Positions 35,433 through 47,571 of a stretch of 64,000 nt of DNA are shown here, one piece after another (positions within the stretch are counted from its first letter, which is position 1; each line of letters starts with the position of its first letter). The DNA is from Spirochaetota bacterium (GTDB lineage: Bacteria > Spirochaetota > Spirochaetia > Treponematales > UBA12059): contig JADFDI010000003.1 in NCBI GenBank assembly GCA_018262985.1, forward strand, positions 161,577 through 225,576. Direction: 5' to 3'. The translations under genes were made by a program, and so were the position numbers. The notes under the pieces were generated by a model. It searched no databases. It was not told where the DNA came from and saw nothing but the letters and a program-made list of their open reading frames with translations.

Positions 35433-35820
35433 CGGGCGCCCCGGCGTCGCCGGAGGGCGCCGCCGGCCGGGCTTTCCGCTCCAATCGGGCCGCGCCACCC
35501 GCTCCGCCCGCGGGACCGGCCCGAACGGCCCGATTTCCGCTGCAATCCCTGGCGCGACTCCCGGCGTCGCGGCGCCGTCCCCCTCCGACGGCGCGCCCCC
35601 GGGCTCCGTCCCTGCGAGCTCCGTCCCTCCGGGCTCCGTCCCTGCGAGCTCTGTCCCCCGGGCTCTGTCCCTCCGAGCTCTGTCCCTCCGAGCTCTGTCC
35701 CTCCGAGCTCTGTCCCTCCGAGCTCTGTCCCTCCGGGATCCGTCCCCGGGACTTTGTCCCTCCAGGGTCTGTCCCCCGGGGTCTGTCCCCCGGGGTCTGT
35801 CCCCCGGGGTCTGTCCCCGT
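35433..35820. repeat. Composite repeat element with 15-unit tandem array (copy 2)
   Basis: The leader module shares GCCGGAGGGCG, TTTCCGCTCCAA, TTTCCGCTGCAA and TCCCTGGCGCGACTCCCGG with copy 1. From about 35605 to 35820 follow about fifteen units of 14-15 bp of the type GAGCTCTGTCCCTCC, shading into GGGGTCTGTCCCCC at the 3' end. The core is the reverse complement of the copy 1 unit. It lies just upstream of the HerA-like gene promoter. Confidence 0.85.
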
Positions 35821-39500: not shown

Positions 39501-40127
39501 ATGCTCGAATCGAGGTCTGTTTTCGGTCGTATCGCCGCCGTGGTGGCCCTTTCCATCGCCGTGTTCTCGGCCAGCTCTTGCGATCCGAACGTTTTCGTCG
39601 AGACGGTCGCGTGGGGGGACGAGGGGGACGGCTTCCTGACCTACCGCACCAACGATCCGGAAGAGCTGGACCGGAGCGCCTGGCGGCTCGATGGCTATGT
39701 CCAGGCCGAGGTCGGCTATACGGTCGAGGCGAAGGTCCGCAAGGTCTCGGGTTCGCCCACTACCGGTTACGGCATCGTCTTCTGCGCCCAGGACGACGAT
39801 AATTTTTACCGCGTCCTCGTCAACGTGAACGGACGCTTCAACGTCTACAAGCGCGTCGCGGGTACCTGGAGCCAAATCTCGGGTTGGGAAGATTCCCCCG
39901 CCTTGAACGAAGGCTACGGCGTCGACAACACGATCAAGGTCGCGCGCGATGGCGATGTGCTCCGCCTGTACTTCAACGGGACGAGCGTGGGTATCTTCAA
40001 CCCCGCGGAGTTCAAGGGCGGGCAGGCCGGTTTCTATGCCGGCATCGGTTCCCGCGACTCGGAGACCTTCCCCCAGATCTTCTCGGAGACCAAATTCACG
40101 CAGACCCTGCCCGTACCAATCCCGTAA
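39501..40127 (+). CDS. Lipoprotein with concanavalin/LamG-like beta-sandwich
   Basis: A 208-aa exported protein. The N-terminus MLESRSVFGRIAAVVALS is followed by FSASSC, a lipobox with lipid Cys near residue 27. The mature part has the strand pattern of a laminin-G/DUF1080-like sandwich: YTVEAKVRKVSG, YGIVFCAQDDDNFYRVLV, NTIKVARDGDVLRLYFNG and GQAGFYAGIG. These domains commonly bind glycans, but no catalytic residues are seen. GGAGG is 7 nt before the ATG. A perfect palindrome at 40271-40288 downstream may end its transcript. Confidence 0.85.
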   Translation: MLESRSVFGRIAAVVALSIAVFSASSCDPNVFVETVAWGDEGDGFLTYRTNDPEELDRSAWRLDGYVQAEVGYTVEAKVRKVSGSPTTGYGIVFCAQDDDNFYRVLVNVNGRFNVYKRVAGTWSQISGWEDSPALNEGYGVDNTIKVARDGDVLRLYFNGTSVGIFNPAEFKGGQAGFYAGIGSRDSETFPQIFSETKFTQTLPVPIP

Positions 40128-40270
40128 GGTTCCGGGCCACGGATCGAGGCAACCTGTCCGTACGCGCTCGTGATGACCTCGTTCTATCCCCCGACGCTTC
40201 ATTGGCGGTACCGGAAGGTCGGCTGGCGGACCCTGTGGTGCATAATGCCGCCGTTTCGATCGGCCTCCCC

Positions 40271-40288
40271 TTCCGGGGCGCCCCGGAA
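40271..40288. terminator. 18-bp GC palindrome, possible terminator
   Basis: TTCCGGGGCGCCCCGGAA is perfectly palindromic. It lies between the lipoprotein gene and the tatA promoter. No T tract follows, so a terminator role is uncertain. Confidence 0.4.
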
Positions 40289-40321
40289 CGCGGGGCCGAT
40301 GCGCGCCCGGGACCGCGGGCG

Positions 40322-40350
40322 TGGCGCGCCGGCGGGAAGGGGCGTATACT
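40322..40350 (+). promoter_or_regulatory. Promoter of the tatA-polyferredoxin operon
   Basis: TGGCGC (40322-40327), a 17-bp spacer, TATACT (40345-40350), then GGAGGGG about 6 nt before GTG 40370. Confidence 0.55.
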
Positions 40351-40369
40351 CCTTCCGGAGGGGAGCGCG

Positions 40370-40561
40370 GTGAACGCAGGATTGCCCGAAGTCGTCGTCA
40401 TCCTGGTCATCGTGCTCGTCCTGTCCGGGGCCAGGCGCCCGCCCGAGCCGGCGCGGAGCATGGGCCGCGCCACGGGCGAGCTCCGCGAGGGTTTCCGCGT
40501 GCGATCCGAGGAGCTCATGGAAGCGGGCAAGGACGATGCCGGGAACCGGAATGGCGGCTGA
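40370..40561 (+). CDS. tatA: TatA/E-type twin-arginine translocase subunit
   Basis: A 63-aa TatA-like protein beginning at GTG 40370 with a strong Shine-Dalgarno sequence. It has the classical layout: a short periplasmic tip, a membrane helix (LPEVVVILVIVLVLSGA), a hinge (GARRPPEPARSMGRATGELR, matching FGxKKLPELARSLGxA) and an amphipathic charged helix. TatA forms the protein-conducting assembly for folded Tat substrates. No tatB or tatC is visible nearby. The two genes downstream carry twin-arginine-type motifs, which suggests a locally provided TatA for those substrates. The next small ORF begins inside its 3' end. Confidence 0.85.
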   Translation: MNAGLPEVVVILVIVLVLSGARRPPEPARSMGRATGELREGFRVRSEELMEAGKDDAGNRNGG

Positions 40562-40808
40562 GGCGCTCCGGGCGCCGGGTCGCTTCGGGAAGCCCGGTGC
40601 CGACCGGCCCTTCCTCGAGCAGCTCGCGGAGTCCGGGCGGCGCGCCCTCGCGACCGCGGCCCGCTTCGTCGCGGACGCCGTGGCGACGCCGCCGGACGCC
40701 TTCTCGCGGGTGCTCGTCGCGGCGCCGCTCTGACTGCTTTTCGGGCTCGCGCTCGCGGCCGGTCGGGCGCTCGCCCCCTCCATACCCGGTCCGGAGGACG
40801 CTCGATGA
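40551..40808 (+). CDS. Small membrane protein ORF interrupted by in-frame TGA
   Basis: From ATG 40551 (or 40536) the frame runs 60 codons to a TGA at 40731-40733. It continues open for 24 more codons to TGA 40806-40808, which overlaps the ATG of the DUF362 gene as a typical coupled ATGA. The residues either side of the internal TGA (VLVAAPL and LLFGLALAAGRAL) make one continuous membrane helix, so both halves appear to belong to one gene. The N-terminal half is a charged amphipathic region. The TGA could be a TGG-to-TGA nonsense change, a sequencing error, read-through or a selenocysteine codon. No family was recognised. Confidence 0.5.
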
Positions 40809-41746
40809 ACCGCAGGGAATTCCTTTCGACGCTCGGAAAAGGCGCGGGCGCCCTCGGCGCGGCCTGGCTCCTCGGCGGCGCGACGAGGATCTTCGCCCAG
40901 GCCGGACCCTCCGCCGCGGCGGCGGGCGCGGCGGGCGCCTACCCCGACTTGGTCGCGGTCAAGGGGGGCGGGGCGGCCGCCCGGCTCGACGCCGCCCTCG
41001 TCGCCTCCGGCGGCATCGGGCGCTTCGTGCGGAAGGGCGCCTTCGTCGTGATCAAGCCGAACATCGGCTGGGACGTCCGGCCCGAGCTCGCGGCGAACAC
41101 CGATCCGGCCCTGGTGAAGCGCCTGGTCGAGCTGTGCCTCGCCGCGGGCGCGCGGCGGGTCGCGGTCTTCGACCACACCTGCGACGCCTGGAGGGCCTGC
41201 TACGCCAACTCCGGCATAGAGGCGGCGGCGAAGGCCGCCGGCGCGGAAGTGGCGCCCGCCCACGCCGAGTCCTACTACCAGGCGGTCGAGGCGCCCGGGG
41301 CGCGGACCATCGGCCGCGCCAAGGTCCACGAGCTCGCGCTGGAAGCCGACTGCCTCGTCAACGTACCGGTGCTGAAGAGCCACGGCGGCGCGGGCATGAC
41401 GGCCGCCATGAAGAACCTCATGGGCATGGTATGGGACCGGGGCGCCTTCCACTCCCGGGGCCTCGACGCCTGCATCGCCGAAGCCGCGCGGCTCAGGCGA
41501 CCCGACCTCAACATCCTCGACGCGGGCAAGGTGATGCTCTCGGGAGGCCCCCGGGGGAACGCCTCGAGCCGCTACTCGGAGCAGCGGCTCCTCGTGCTCT
41601 CCACCGACATCGTGGCCCTCGACGCCGCGGCCGCGAAGACTTTCGGACCCGGTCCCGCCGCCTTCGAGTACATTGGCCTGGCCGCGCGCGCCGGCCTCGG
41701 CCGCGAGGACCTCGAGAACCTCGCGATACGCAGGATCGAGCTGTGA
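40805..41746 (+). CDS. DUF362 protein with twin-arginine signal
   Basis: A 313-aa exported protein. It opens MNRREFLSTLGKGAGALG, a twin-arginine signal with a hydrophobic stretch and AQA cleavage region near residue 33. The DUF362 domain follows: VVIKPNIGWD, the VFDHTCDAWRACYANSG Cys pair and VNVPVLKSHGGAGMTAAMKN. DUF362 proteins are often near or fused to ferredoxins, and their reaction is unknown. The gene is translationally coupled on both sides: ATGA with the TGA-interrupted ORF, and GTGA with the polyferredoxin. This supports a common complex at the outer face of the membrane. Confidence 0.88.
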   Translation: MNRREFLSTLGKGAGALGAAWLLGGATRIFAQAGPSAAAAGAAGAYPDLVAVKGGGAAARLDAALVASGGIGRFVRKGAFVVIKPNIGWDVRPELAANTDPALVKRLVELCLAAGARRVAVFDHTCDAWRACYANSGIEAAAKAAGAEVAPAHAESYYQAVEAPGARTIGRAKVHELALEADCLVNVPVLKSHGGAGMTAAMKNLMGMVWDRGAFHSRGLDACIAEAARLRRPDLNILDAGKVMLSGGPRGNASSRYSEQRLLVLSTDIVALDAAAAKTFGPGPAAFEYIGLAARAGLGREDLENLAIRRIEL

Positions 41747-43338
41747 AAGGACTCCGGACCTTCCGCGCGCTCGCCCGCGCGCGGGGGCTCTTCGCCGGGT
41801 TCTGGCTCGCCGCCTTCTGCCTCGCGCTGGCCCTGCCCGCGAGCGAGGCGCCAGGCCTGGTTCCGCTCGCCGGCTTCCTCGCCGGAACGCAGCCCTTTCA
41901 CGCGCTGGAGCGGGTCCTGCTCGCCGCCGCCCCGCGCGCGGCGGTCCTCGCTTCGGCGCTCGCCGCGCTCGCGGCCCTGGCGGGCGCCTTCGTCCTGGGT
42001 CGCTTCCACTGCTCCCTCCTCTGCCCGCTCGGCACCTGCCAGGACGCCGCGGCGCGGCTCGCCTCGGCCGGCCGCTCGGCCCGGCGCGGCCCCGGCCGGC
42101 GCGAGGGCCGCGCGTTCGGCGTCGCCAGGCCGCTCGCCTTCGCCCTCGTCCTCGGCGGCCTCGCAGAGGGCCTTCCCGCCGCCGCGGCGCTGCTCGAGCC
42201 GTACTCGGTGTTCGCGCGGGGCTTTTCCCGCACCGCGGGCGACCTCGCGGGCCTCGCCCTGAACGGCCTCGAAGCGCTGGGGCTCCGCATTCCCGTCGTC
42301 ACCCTGCGCTGGGAGCCGCTCGCCTTCGCCCTCGCGGCCCTGCCCTTCGCGGCCGTCCTCGCGGCCGGCTCCTTCCGGAGCCGCTGGTTCTGCGGCGAAC
42401 TCTGCCCGGTCGGAGCGGCTCTCGGCGCGATCAACCGCCTCGCCGCGCTCCGGGTCCGTTTCGACCCGGCCGCCTGCGTTTCGTGCGGCGCCTGCGAGAA
42501 GGTCTGCCGCGCGCGCTGCGTCGACGCCTCCGGACTCGACGCGAGCCGCTGCGTGCAGTGCCTCGACTGCCTGGCCGCCTGCCCGACGGGCGCGCTCTCC
42601 TACGGCCCCGCCCCCGCGGAGGGGGCGGGCGCCCCCGACCTCTCGCGGCGGCGCTTCATCGCCGAAGCCGGCGCCGTCGCGGCGGGAGCCGCGCTGGCTC
42701 TCGCCCTACCCGCGGCCGCGAGCGCCTCGGGACTCGCCCTGGTCCGGAAGGCTCCCCGGGGAAGCTCCGGTCGGCTCCTCGCCGCGCCGCCGGGGGCCGG
42801 TTCCGTCGACCGCTACGCGTCCCTCTGCACGGGCTGCGGAACCTGCGTCCGCGCGTGCCCCTCGGGCGTCCTCAGGCACTCGGGCGCGGAATTCGGCCTC
42901 GCGCGACCCATGGTGCCCTACCTCGACTACGGGCGCGCCTTCTGCCAGTACGAGTGCGTCGCCTGCGCCGGGGTCTGTCCCTCGGGCGCCCTGCTCGCCG
43001 TCGCGCCGGAGGCGAAGAAGCGGACCGCCGTCGGCAAGTCGGACCTGGTCCTCGCCGATTGCATCGTGGTGGCGAAGGGCACTCGCTGCGGGGCCTGCGC
43101 CGAGCACTGCCCGAGCGGCGCCGTCCGCATCGAGGCGGTGCCGGGGCGGCCCCTGCCGGTGCCCGTGCTGCACGCTCCGACCTGCGTAGGCTGCGGAGCC
43201 TGCGAGACCGTCTGTCCCGCGACGCCGCGCAAGGCCATGACGGTCGCGGGGCTCGCCGTCCACGAGACCGCCGAGCCGCCCCGCAAGGACGCGCCGGACG
43301 GCGCCGCGGCTCCCCCCGTCGAGGGCTTCGCCTTCTAG
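41743..43338 (+). CDS. NapH-NapG-like membrane polyferredoxin with internal twin-arginine segment
   Basis: A 531-aa iron-sulfur membrane protein starting at GTG 41743. The N-terminal half is NapH/CcoG-like: several membrane helices, CSLLCPLGTCQD and CGELCPVGAA. Two [4Fe-4S] sites follow (CVSCGACEKVC and CVQCLDCLAACPTGAL). Near residue 300 comes SRRRFIAEAG and a hydrophobic Ala/Leu stretch, resembling an internal Tat signal-anchor. After it are about four more clusters (CTGCGTCVRACPSG, CVACAGVCPSG, CGACAEHCPSG, CVGCGACETVCP). This is the order NapH then NapG in one chain, able to carry electrons across the membrane. It closes the tatA operon. The electron donor and acceptor are unknown. Confidence 0.9.
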   Translation: MKGLRTFRALARARGLFAGFWLAAFCLALALPASEAPGLVPLAGFLAGTQPFHALERVLLAAAPRAAVLASALAALAALAGAFVLGRFHCSLLCPLGTCQDAAARLASAGRSARRGPGRREGRAFGVARPLAFALVLGGLAEGLPAAAALLEPYSVFARGFSRTAGDLAGLALNGLEALGLRIPVVTLRWEPLAFALAALPFAAVLAAGSFRSRWFCGELCPVGAALGAINRLAALRVRFDPAACVSCGACEKVCRARCVDASGLDASRCVQCLDCLAACPTGALSYGPAPAEGAGAPDLSRRRFIAEAGAVAAGAALALALPAAASASGLALVRKAPRGSSGRLLAAPPGAGSVDRYASLCTGCGTCVRACPSGVLRHSGAEFGLARPMVPYLDYGRAFCQYECVACAGVCPSGALLAVAPEAKKRTAVGKSDLVLADCIVVAKGTRCGACAEHCPSGAVRIEAVPGRPLPVPVLHAPTCVGCGACETVCPATPRKAMTVAGLAVHETAEPPRKDAPDGAAAPPVEGFAF

Positions 43339-43410
43339 CGGCTGAATGGCGGCGAGGAGCGTGAGGACGCGGTCTGGCGGACGGGCGGGGGCGCTCGCGA
43401 CGTCCCCGCG

Positions 43411-43444
43411 CCGGGCGGCCCCGCCGGGATCCGGGGCCGCCCGG
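43411..43444. terminator. Perfect 12-bp-stem hairpin between convergent genes
   Basis: CCGGGCGGCCCC (43411-43422) pairs perfectly with GGGGCCGCCCGG (43433-43444). It lies between the polyferredoxin gene and the converging small helical gene. No T tract, but the position suits a bidirectional terminator. Confidence 0.5.
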
Positions 43445-43475
43445 ACGGTCCGCGCCGCCCCCGGAGCCGGGTCCC

Positions 43476-43940
43476 CTACAGGGCGATGCCGGAGAGGTCG
43501 GATTCGAGGACTTTCCGGCTCTCCGCGTCGGTGACGCGAGCGGCGTCCTCGCGGGCCTCCTCGAGGAAGGACGCCGCCTCGGCGCGACGGCCGAGCAGGG
43601 CGGCCGCGCGCGCCAGGGCCTCGCGGGCGTAGGCCGAGTAGAAGGGCTCGAGGGCGCCGCGCCGGGCGGCTTCCAGCGACAGGAGCCCGTAGCGCAGGGC
43701 CTCCTCGCCGCGCCGCGCCTCCGAGTACACGCGCGAGAGCTGCCAGTAGCCCACGGACAGCTGCAGGTCCGTGACGTCGGCGCGCGCGCGCCAGTGGTGC
43801 AGCGACGCGTGGCTCGCGTGGATCATGGCCTCGGTCTCGTCCTCGCTCCTGTCGGCCTTGTCGATGAAGGTCCAGGTGGCGTTGAAGCAGGCGGCGGAAA
43901 AGTGCCTGTGGCCGGCGGCCTCGTCGAATTTCTCGCTCAT
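43476..43940 (-). CDS. Hypothetical helical (TPR-like) protein
   Basis: A 154-aa protein with no signal peptide or membrane segment. The sequence is helix-rich with repeat-like spacing (HRHFSAACFNATW, SVGYWQLSRVYSEARRGEEAL, AREALARAAALLGRRAEA), resembling two or three degenerate tetratricopeptide repeats. It probably mediates protein contacts. GGAGGAGA precedes ATG 43940. It is convergent with the polyferredoxin operon and divergent from the M23 peptidase gene, with about 96 bp between start codons. Confidence 0.75.
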   Translation of the reverse strand: MSEKFDEAAGHRHFSAACFNATWTFIDKADRSEDETEAMIHASHASLHHWRARADVTDLQLSVGYWQLSRVYSEARRGEEALRYGLLSLEAARRGALEPFYSAYAREALARAAALLGRRAEAASFLEEAREDAARVTDAESRKVLESDLSGIAL

Positions 43941-46298: not shown

Positions 46299-46482
46299 GT
46301 CCGGGCTCCTCTCCGATCGGGGTGAAGTAGATTACTCTTCCAATCAAGATAAGGAGGCGAGCGCCTTCGAGGAAAGTCACCGGGGAAGCGCCGCGCGGGC
46401 GCGAAGGGCGCCGCCCCGCGTGGCGCGCGGGCCCGCCGGGCGGGTAGGGCGGGCTGGAGACGAAGCCCGTTCGCCTTCGTCC

Positions 46483-46539
46483 CCGGAAGCTTCGTGACAC
46501 CCAGAAGCTTCGTGACACCCGGAAGCTTCGTGACACCCG
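46483..46539. repeat. Three tandem copies of the AAGCTTCGTGACAC repeat
   Basis: CCGGAAGCTTCGTGACACC, CAGAAGCTTCGTGACACC and CGGAAGCTTCGTGACACC lie head to tail at 18-bp spacing, between the FMN-binding gene terminator and the upstream region of pruA. Confidence 0.85.
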
Positions 46540-46598: not shown

Positions 46599-47411
46599 TT
46601 ACTTCGCGGCCTTGAGGGCCTGGGCGCAGAGGTCGAGGAAGCCCTTCACGGTGATCGAGGCGCCGGAGACGGCGTCGGTCTTGCCGTCGGCCTTGACCGC
46701 GATCTTGGACGGGTCCTGGGCGGCGAGCAGGGCGGCTTCCATGGCGGCGGTCTGGACGTTCCACTCGCCCTTCTTGGCGACCTTGGCCATGCCGTAGCGG
46801 CCGGCGGCGGCCTCGACGAGCTTGGACTTCTTGGTGGCGTCCTTGTAGGTGCCGTTCCAGAGGACGTCGACGATGCGGCCGTTCACCACGGTGAGCAGCA
46901 CGTTGTCCTTCCAGCCGGAGGTCTCGAAGGCGGCGGCCTCGGCGAAGTACCAGCCGTCCTTCTTGTAGCCGCCCTTCTCGACGGGCTTCGAGGCCAGGGC
47001 GACCTTGGCCAGCTCGATGAATTCCTTGACGGTGATGGAGGCGCCGGCGATGGCGTCGGTCTTGCCGTCGGCCTTGACCGCGATCTTGTCGGGCGAACCG
47101 GCGGCCACGAGGGCGGCCTCGACCTTGGCGGCCTGCACGTCCCACTCGCCGTTCTTGGCGATCTTGGCCATGCCGTACTTGCCGGCGGCGGCGTAGGCCT
47201 TCTTGTCGACCACGCCGAGGTTGGAGACGGCGTTCCACTCGGCCTTGACGATCTTGCCGCCCTTGACCGTGATCACGGCCTGGTAGCGCCAGCCGGAGCT
47301 GGAGTAGGCGGACTGCTGGGCGAAATAGACGCCGTCCTTGTAGCTCTGGGCGACGGCGACGCCGGCCAGGACCATGGAAAGGAGCGTCGCGAGGGCGATC
47401 ATGCGCTTCAT
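46599..47411 (-). CDS. Exported protein with two FMN-binding domains
   Basis: A 270-aa periplasmic or surface redox protein. Signal peptide MKRMIALATLLSMVLAG ends near AVAQ (about residue 22). Two homologous FMN-binding domains follow, about residues 23-140 and 148-270. Each has an ITVKGGKIVKAEWN-like or LTVVNGRIVDVLWN-like strand pair, a GKYGMAK/GRYGMAK motif and a late flavinylation-like site, DAIAGASITVKEF or DAVSGASITVKGF. ApbE-type enzymes attach FMN at DxxSGATxT. Here the acceptor position is Ser (GAS), so attachment by Ser or non-covalent binding is possible. It has a strong consensus promoter, a good Shine-Dalgarno sequence and its own terminator, all indicating high expression. No apbE gene is in the window. 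Confidence 0.9.
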   Translation of the reverse strand: MKRMIALATLLSMVLAGVAVAQSYKDGVYFAQQSAYSSSGWRYQAVITVKGGKIVKAEWNAVSNLGVVDKKAYAAAGKYGMAKIAKNGEWDVQAAKVEAALVAAGSPDKIAVKADGKTDAIAGASITVKEFIELAKVALASKPVEKGGYKKDGWYFAEAAAFETSGWKDNVLLTVVNGRIVDVLWNGTYKDATKKSKLVEAAAGRYGMAKVAKKGEWNVQTAAMEAALLAAQDPSKIAVKADGKTDAVSGASITVKGFLDLCAQALKAAK

Positions 47412-47435
47412 GGAGTTCCTCCTGCGGATTCCATT

Positions 47436-47447
47436 CGTATCGATACG
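47436..47447. promoter_or_regulatory. 12-bp palindrome in the FMN gene leader
   Basis: CGTATCGATACG is a perfect palindrome. It lies between the -10 box and the start codon, where a repressor could block transcription. Confidence 0.4.
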
Positions 47448-47453
47448 GATAGA

Positions 47454-47483
47454 GTGATACCGCTGAATAAACAACTCTGTCAA
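47454..47483 (-). promoter_or_regulatory. Promoter of FMN-binding protein gene
   Basis: On the minus strand TTGACA (47483-47478), an 18-bp spacer and TATCAC (47459-47454). It lies in an A+T-rich stretch rare for this window. It is the best consensus -35 box seen here, with the one before the decarboxylase gene. Confidence 0.65.
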
Positions 47484-47571
47484 TATAAACGTAACGATAT
47501 AGGTCAACGAGCGGCTTCCGCATGACGCGGACGCGGACGCGGGCGCCGGACGCCGGGGTCGCGTCCCGGAC

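Follow-up and report, generated by a model that had tools for sequence, protein, structure and literature searches.

Genes of the twin-arginine translocation (Tat) pathway can be linked to the gene of a particular cargo, as are those near phoD and efeB/ywbN in Bacilli (PMC3827258). Among membrane iron–sulfur proteins, the architecture of the dual Sec/Tat polyferredoxins has experimental support (Tooke et al. 2017, PMC5449189), and DUF362, a domain of unknown function, shares Pfam clan CL0471 with LarA (PMC11770544). The present study concerns a locus of a Spirochaetota bacterium in which relatives of all three lie side by side. The window, by which we mean the whole stretch of 64,000 nucleotides analyzed (positions 161,577 to 225,576 of contig JADFDI010000003.1, assembly GCA_018262985.1), is part of contig C16 in our numbering and belongs to a genome of 3.44 Mb that is 99.8% complete. 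We consider it probable that the locus retains the working core of a conserved module, namely an exported DUF362 protein with its membrane polyferredoxin, and that the tatA–tatC belonging to this module was lost here and replaced by a canonical TatAC encoded elsewhere in the genome. The closest relatives of the genome in a named collection are metagenome-assembled genomes titled Spirochaetales, Treponema or Spirochaetes. The features of the locus are as follows.

40370..40561, + strand: tatA remnant of 63 residues with a GTG start (Pfam TatA_B_E, 31.7 bits; alignment with TatA of the sister genome G001, 53.4 bits; ratio of nonsynonymous to synonymous substitution, dN/dS)
40536..40808, + strand: tatC pseudogene comprising the first ~43 and the last ~47 codons (profile matches, DNA alignment with the sister genome, dN/dS)
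40805..41746, + strand: predicted Tat-exported DUF362 protein of 313 residues with the twin-arginine segment MNRREFLSTLGK and a LarA-like fold (Pfam, 173.3 bits; model; conservation)
41743..43338, + strand: NapH–NapG fusion polyferredoxin of 531 residues with NapH- and NapG-like halves (dN/dS 0.24)

A first-pass annotation, made from the letters of the window alone, had already proposed the tatA-like open reading frame (ORF), the DUF362 protein starting with the twin-arginine segment and the 531-residue polyferredoxin, and all three are borne out. Both of the twin-arginine proteins that it counted are also present, the motif lying at the start of DUF362 in one case and inside the polyferredoxin in the other.

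Decay of tatA and tatC in the window

As the reference for pairwise dN/dS and DNA alignment we used G001, a genome of the same genus that represents a sister species. Its gene order is tatA, tatC, DUF362 and polyferredoxin, all intact; the operon tatC has 264 codons, scores 157 bits and is the only copy found, a search of G001 for a second TatC having returned none. Aligned with this operon, the window tatC carries one 513-bp in-frame deletion after position 40663, which removes 171 codons of the TatC core, and a nonsense codon, TGA at 40731-40733 where the sister has TGG, which falls inside the last hydrophobic stretch of TatC. When this TGA is read through, the frame continues as LLFGLALAAGRALAPSIPGPEDAR to the TGA that overlaps the ATG of DUF362 (the ancestral tatC stop, 40806-40808), and the tail so obtained matches the TatC C terminus (Pfam, E 0.008; NCBIfam TatC-Arch, E 9e-6). 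The small ORF at 40536-40733, initially read as a gene for a membrane protein, is not an intact gene but the two ends of a destroyed tatC, and with the deletion and the nonsense codon the window copy falls short of a full-length TatC.

The preceding tatA is recognizable but unconstrained. Its LFG has become LSG, with loss of the Phe of the FG motif, and its RLPEL has become RPPEP, while the sister TatA retains the usual residues; dN/dS over its 63 codons is 1.40, which gives no sign of purifying selection. The two ends of tatC yield values of 0.96 and 1.0. In contrast, DUF362 (0.075), the polyferredoxin (0.24) and a neighboring ATP-binding cassette (ABC) transporter gene (0.245) have much lower dN/dS; few codons stand behind the tatA and tatC values, yet the difference from the constrained genes is large. 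Thus, the DUF362 and polyferredoxin genes are intact and constrained in the window.

These data bear on the alternative that the operon is a still working, dedicated Tat system in which a shortened TatC-like membrane protein has acquired a new job. The tatA does still score as a TatA, and the remnant ORF has kept its position and overlaps. However, a TatC that lacks its core and is interrupted in its last hydrophobic stretch, a TatA without the FG-motif Phe, and dN/dS near or above 1 for tatA and both tatC ends directly before tightly constrained genes largely refute this alternative, and we regard it as very improbable. Recoding of the TGA at 40731-40733 as selenocysteine or tryptophan was rejected, given the TGG of the sister, the additional loss of 171 codons and the termination of nearby genes in TGA. 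Sequencing error is an unlikely source of the lesions: these are several and independent, and dN/dS is close to 1 for both tat remnants. The decay of tatC explains the apparent oddity of a tatA with neither tatB nor tatC nearby, and tat genes linked to a particular cargo were, as noted, already known.

The translational coupling proposed for the operon holds at one junction and fails at another. A GTGA overlap at 41743-41746 joins the DUF362 and polyferredoxin genes, whereas at 40805-40808 the ATGA combines the DUF362 ATG with the stop codon of the ancestral tatC, and the remnant ORF now ends 71 bp upstream of that ATG. The suggestion of one promoter for all the genes is unsupported: no sigma-70-type promoter was found by a scan of 40000-43700, which is itself weak evidence.

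A second, canonical tatAC at another site

The single intact TatC of the genome is encoded at C9:9472-10366 together with its single strong TatA; the tatC that the first-pass annotation would have sought elsewhere is thus present, and tatA exists in two copies rather than as many scattered paralogues. This tatAC sits in a segment of ~3.8 kb that also encodes ArsR, ResB and a CcsA-type protein and that is flanked by an arsenite-type transporter gene (read from its sequence) and an ArsP_1 permease. In the congeners G001 and G002 the same flanks are contiguous and the tatAC segment is missing, which favors insertion of the C9 tatAC rather than loss by the others. In a phylogenetic tree the C9 TatC nests among the canonical TatCs of the family, and the TatC of the G001 operon forms a separate long branch. 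With the window tatC broken, the C9 tatAC intact and only the operon tatC in G001, the two sister species therefore depend on different Tat systems. The earlier idea of linking a Tat exporter with DUF362 and a NapH/NapG-type wire holds for the lineage, in which the sister operon is intact, and tatAC lies beside the pair in many further genomes and several phyla, but not for this genome, in which tatC is destroyed, tatA unconstrained and a canonical tatAC located elsewhere.

Conservation of the DUF362–polyferredoxin module

A scan with a DUF362 alignment returned at least 582 relatives, and the locus counts given here refer to the best 80. These derive from Spirochaetota, Bacteroidota (with Balneolales and Ignavibacteria), Synergistaceae, Competibacteraceae and other Gammaproteobacteria, and further from Opitutales, Akkermansia, Desulfobacteraceae, Riflebacteria, Goldbacteria, Coatesbacteria and Phycisphaerales. 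Of the 80 loci, 67 have the polyferredoxin gene directly after DUF362 and two have it no more than 5 kb away; the other 11 show none, two of them ending too early to judge. Moreover, 15 of the 80 loci, from Spirochaetota, Synergistaceae, Bacteroidales, Riflebacteria and Goldbacteria, have tatC close to the pair and almost always tatA with it. The gene order seen in the window is thus kept in its relatives.

A survey of 393 spirochaete genomes, in which DUF362 was counted above 320 bits, identified 26 that encode this protein. TatC was found in 23 of them, compared with 102 of the 367 others (Fisher p 8e-10), and 10 of the 26 have tatAC no more than 7 kb from DUF362, a number that by our estimate from genome size should be ~0.1. 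The linked TatCs occupy at least three separate places in the TatC tree, and tatAC may come first (G001, G359, G155, G063) or last (G369, G140, G145, G120, G048, G039, Synergistaceae) in the locus. Collectively, the module is conserved and broad and, as a pair, is undescribed in the literature searched: we found no paper on an exported DUF362 paired with a polyferredoxin, in a search that covered few subscription journals.

The DUF362 protein and its likeness to LarA

The window protein exceeds the gathering cut-off of DUF362 (PF04015) by a wide margin, at 173.3 bits against 24, and its twin arginine is RR in 79 of 81 DUF362 proteins and RK in the other two. In a structure comparison, an AlphaFold (AF2) model with a predicted local distance difference test (pLDDT) score of 86 aligned over ~207 residues with LarA and malate racemase (Z 17-19), far better than with unrelated folds (Z <6). 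The LarA match spans DUF362 residues 53-283 and LarA residues ~33-270 of ~420; the C-terminal domain of LarA is absent from the 313-residue protein. A sequence search of the PDB with DUF362 gave no match, and hhalign gave a weak match to LarA (E 0.17). Eight residues are invariant in the 81 proteins: Cys126, His175, Lys191, His193, Lys203, Asn204, Arg212 and His216. H193 and K203 are spaced as are His174, the second catalytic His of LarA, and Lys184, the Lys that tethers its nickel-pincer nucleotide (NPN). H216, at +13 from the Lys where LarA has +16 and thus three residues closer, may stand in for the nickel ligand of LarA. No clear counterpart was found for the ribose-binding Asp and the first catalytic His of LarA, the roles of which are described elsewhere (PMC12611868). 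On the evidence of the model, DUF362 is LarA-like in fold and at most a candidate LarA-type enzyme.

This likeness raises the possibility, tentative and in our judgment unlikely, that some or all members of the exported DUF362 family are NPN enzymes that cross the membrane with the cofactor in place and are fed or drained by the polyferredoxin. The fold match far above unrelated structures and the invariant H193/K203 spacing argue for it, as does the genomic setting of some relatives. Fifteen of the 80 loci, from Competibacteraceae, Balneolales and other Bacteroidetes, have LarC no more than 5 kb from the pair; 13 of them also have LarB and five a LarE-like PP-loop gene, and the arrangement differs among them. 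None of these lar-linked loci is also tat-linked, and their representative LarC and LarB exceed the NCBIfam equivalog cut-offs. Five of the 15 genomes (four Competibacteraceae, one Balneolales) have no LarA match, and a published survey reported larB, larC and larE in the absence of larA in ~15% of genomes (PMC11796402). On the other hand, the profile–profile match is weak, two LarA residues lack clear counterparts, and LarC is present in only 14 of the 26 spirochaete genomes with this DUF362. The window genome, despite its completeness, and its close relatives contain no LarC and LarB matches only at the level of PurE, none above the cut-off (LarE was not searched for). NPN is therefore offered as a rival for the family and not as an explanation for the window; use of NPN by the window's own DUF362 was tested and is unsupported, the genome having neither LarB nor LarC.

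In a more specific form, to which we give slightly less credence still, the exported family would be one missing non-LarA client of NPN. Its members would be organonickel redox enzymes that acquire the cofactor in the cytoplasm, pass through Tat already folded and are connected across the membrane by a seven-cluster polyferredoxin. Those from genomes that lack larB and larC, such as that of the window, would then have a different or scavenged cofactor. As a separate observation, G359 (98% complete) encodes several Lar_N proteins above 150 bits, with no LarC match and a LarB match only at PurE level; these are LarA-family proteins without the known cofactor pathway.

The polyferredoxin

From its N terminus, the polyferredoxin has hydrophobic helices with Cys pairs, the motif SRRRF at 301-305 (twin arginine R302-R303), transmembrane helix 5 (TM5, ~302-326) and the outer four-Cys motifs. 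The cluster-type cysteines comprise pairs 90/94 and 217/221 and two four-Cys motifs before TM5, with the pairs and both motifs predicted to be cytoplasmic, and four four-Cys motifs after it, predicted to lie outside. Across 62 polyferredoxins, 27 of the 28 are invariant and the remaining one is Cys in 61; RR or KR precedes TM5 in 61. The features of the dual Sec/Tat family, a NapH-like multispan N-terminal half fused to a NapG-like half and a twin arginine directly before TM5, are found here, and the cysteine motifs are consistent with its ~7 [4Fe-4S] sites, three inside and four outside. Membership of the polyferredoxin in the dual Sec/Tat NapH–NapG fusion family is thus supported by its sequence.

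A further rival holds that the two proteins form a NapGH-like quinol dehydrogenase, with DUF362 as a structural or assembly partner rather than an enzyme. NapH and NapG are indeed the best NCBIfam models for the two halves, at 58 bits against cut-offs of 213 and 269. However, the eight invariant Cys, His, Lys, Asn and Arg residues of DUF362 resemble an active or cofactor site, and no nap-type terminal reductase was seen among the ORFs read around the locus; we judge this rival improbable, more so than the NPN proposals. When searched for the UbiA family, which bears on quinone dependence, the window genome gave one match and G048 gave none.

Discussion

The best reading of the window DUF362 is as a Tat-exported redox protein of LarA fold that is served by a transmembrane iron–sulfur wire. 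SecYEG would insert the NapH-like half of the polyferredoxin, and Tat would then recognize R302-R303 and translocate the folded four-cluster domain, with TM5 as the anchor. Folded DUF362 would likewise be exported by Tat. Inside, the quinone pool or a cytoplasmic carrier would act as the source or sink of electrons, which would traverse ~3 inner and 4 outer [4Fe-4S] clusters to or from DUF362, and the LarA-fold protein would carry out a periplasmic redox reaction. Within this scheme the components and the order in which they occur have direct or strong support, whereas we infer the route and direction of electron flow, the cofactor and the substrate.

Several observations weigh against this reading. 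Nine of the 80 DUF362 loci have sufficient downstream sequence yet no polyferredoxin there, and three spirochaete genomes with DUF362 gave no TatC match, two of these being incomplete. The Fisher test of co-occurrence ignores shared ancestry. In an alignment of 12 polyferredoxins, L063, L068 and L071 appear to have a single arginine before TM5 (SRAEF, TRSDF and TRAEF), and the model of the window polyferredoxin is only moderate (pLDDT 66). Moreover, electron flow between the polyferredoxin and DUF362 is something that we infer.

At 46599-47507 (− strand), ~3 kb from the polyferredoxin, the window encodes a protein with the Pfam domain FMN_bind whose DNA is conserved in the sister genome and in which a second copy of the domain is suspected from sequence; it could be a further extracytoplasmic redox partner. 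Elsewhere in the window, a tandem array of ~15 copies of a 15-bp unit (35596-35817) lies immediately before an ATPase-like ORF or at its beginning, and an 18-bp tandem repeat at 46482-46539 has 3.2 copies with 95% match.

These results give an orphan class of membrane iron–sulfur wires a usual partner and DUF362 a context. In addition, the recurrent link to larB and larC provides a concrete candidate for an open question, namely which proteins use NPN in genomes that make the cofactor and lack LarA. The window itself exemplifies a cargo-linked Tat exporter in decay where the genome has a second one.

Comparison with known systems places the locus as follows. With LarA and its superfamily, DUF362 has in common the fold and the matching His and Lys spacing; unlike LarA, the window protein is at 12-14% identity, is predicted to be exported and belongs to a genome without LarB and LarC. 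Both halves of the polyferredoxin match the models of the NapG/NapH (MauM/MauN) quinol dehydrogenase, but it is one fused polypeptide, lies far below the curated cut-offs and has no nitrate reductase seen nearby. A further counterpart is the polyferredoxin Q1NSB0 of the delta proteobacterium MLMS-1 and its homologues (PMC5449189), which are likewise NapH–NapG fusions with a twin arginine directly before transmembrane domain 5 and with ~3 cytoplasmic and 4 outer [4Fe-4S] clusters, an arrangement that is predicted for the window protein; the main text of that study does not mention DUF362 or spirochaetes, whereas here a predicted Tat-exported DUF362 is the usual partner. Finally, in the tatCd–phoD and tatCy–efeB/ywbN pairs of Bacilli (PMC3827258), as in this module, translocase genes lie beside a substrate gene. 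The Bacilli pairs involve other substrates and phyla; in contrast, a single cargo pair is linked here to tat genes repeatedly in different phyla, and in the window this linkage has decayed.

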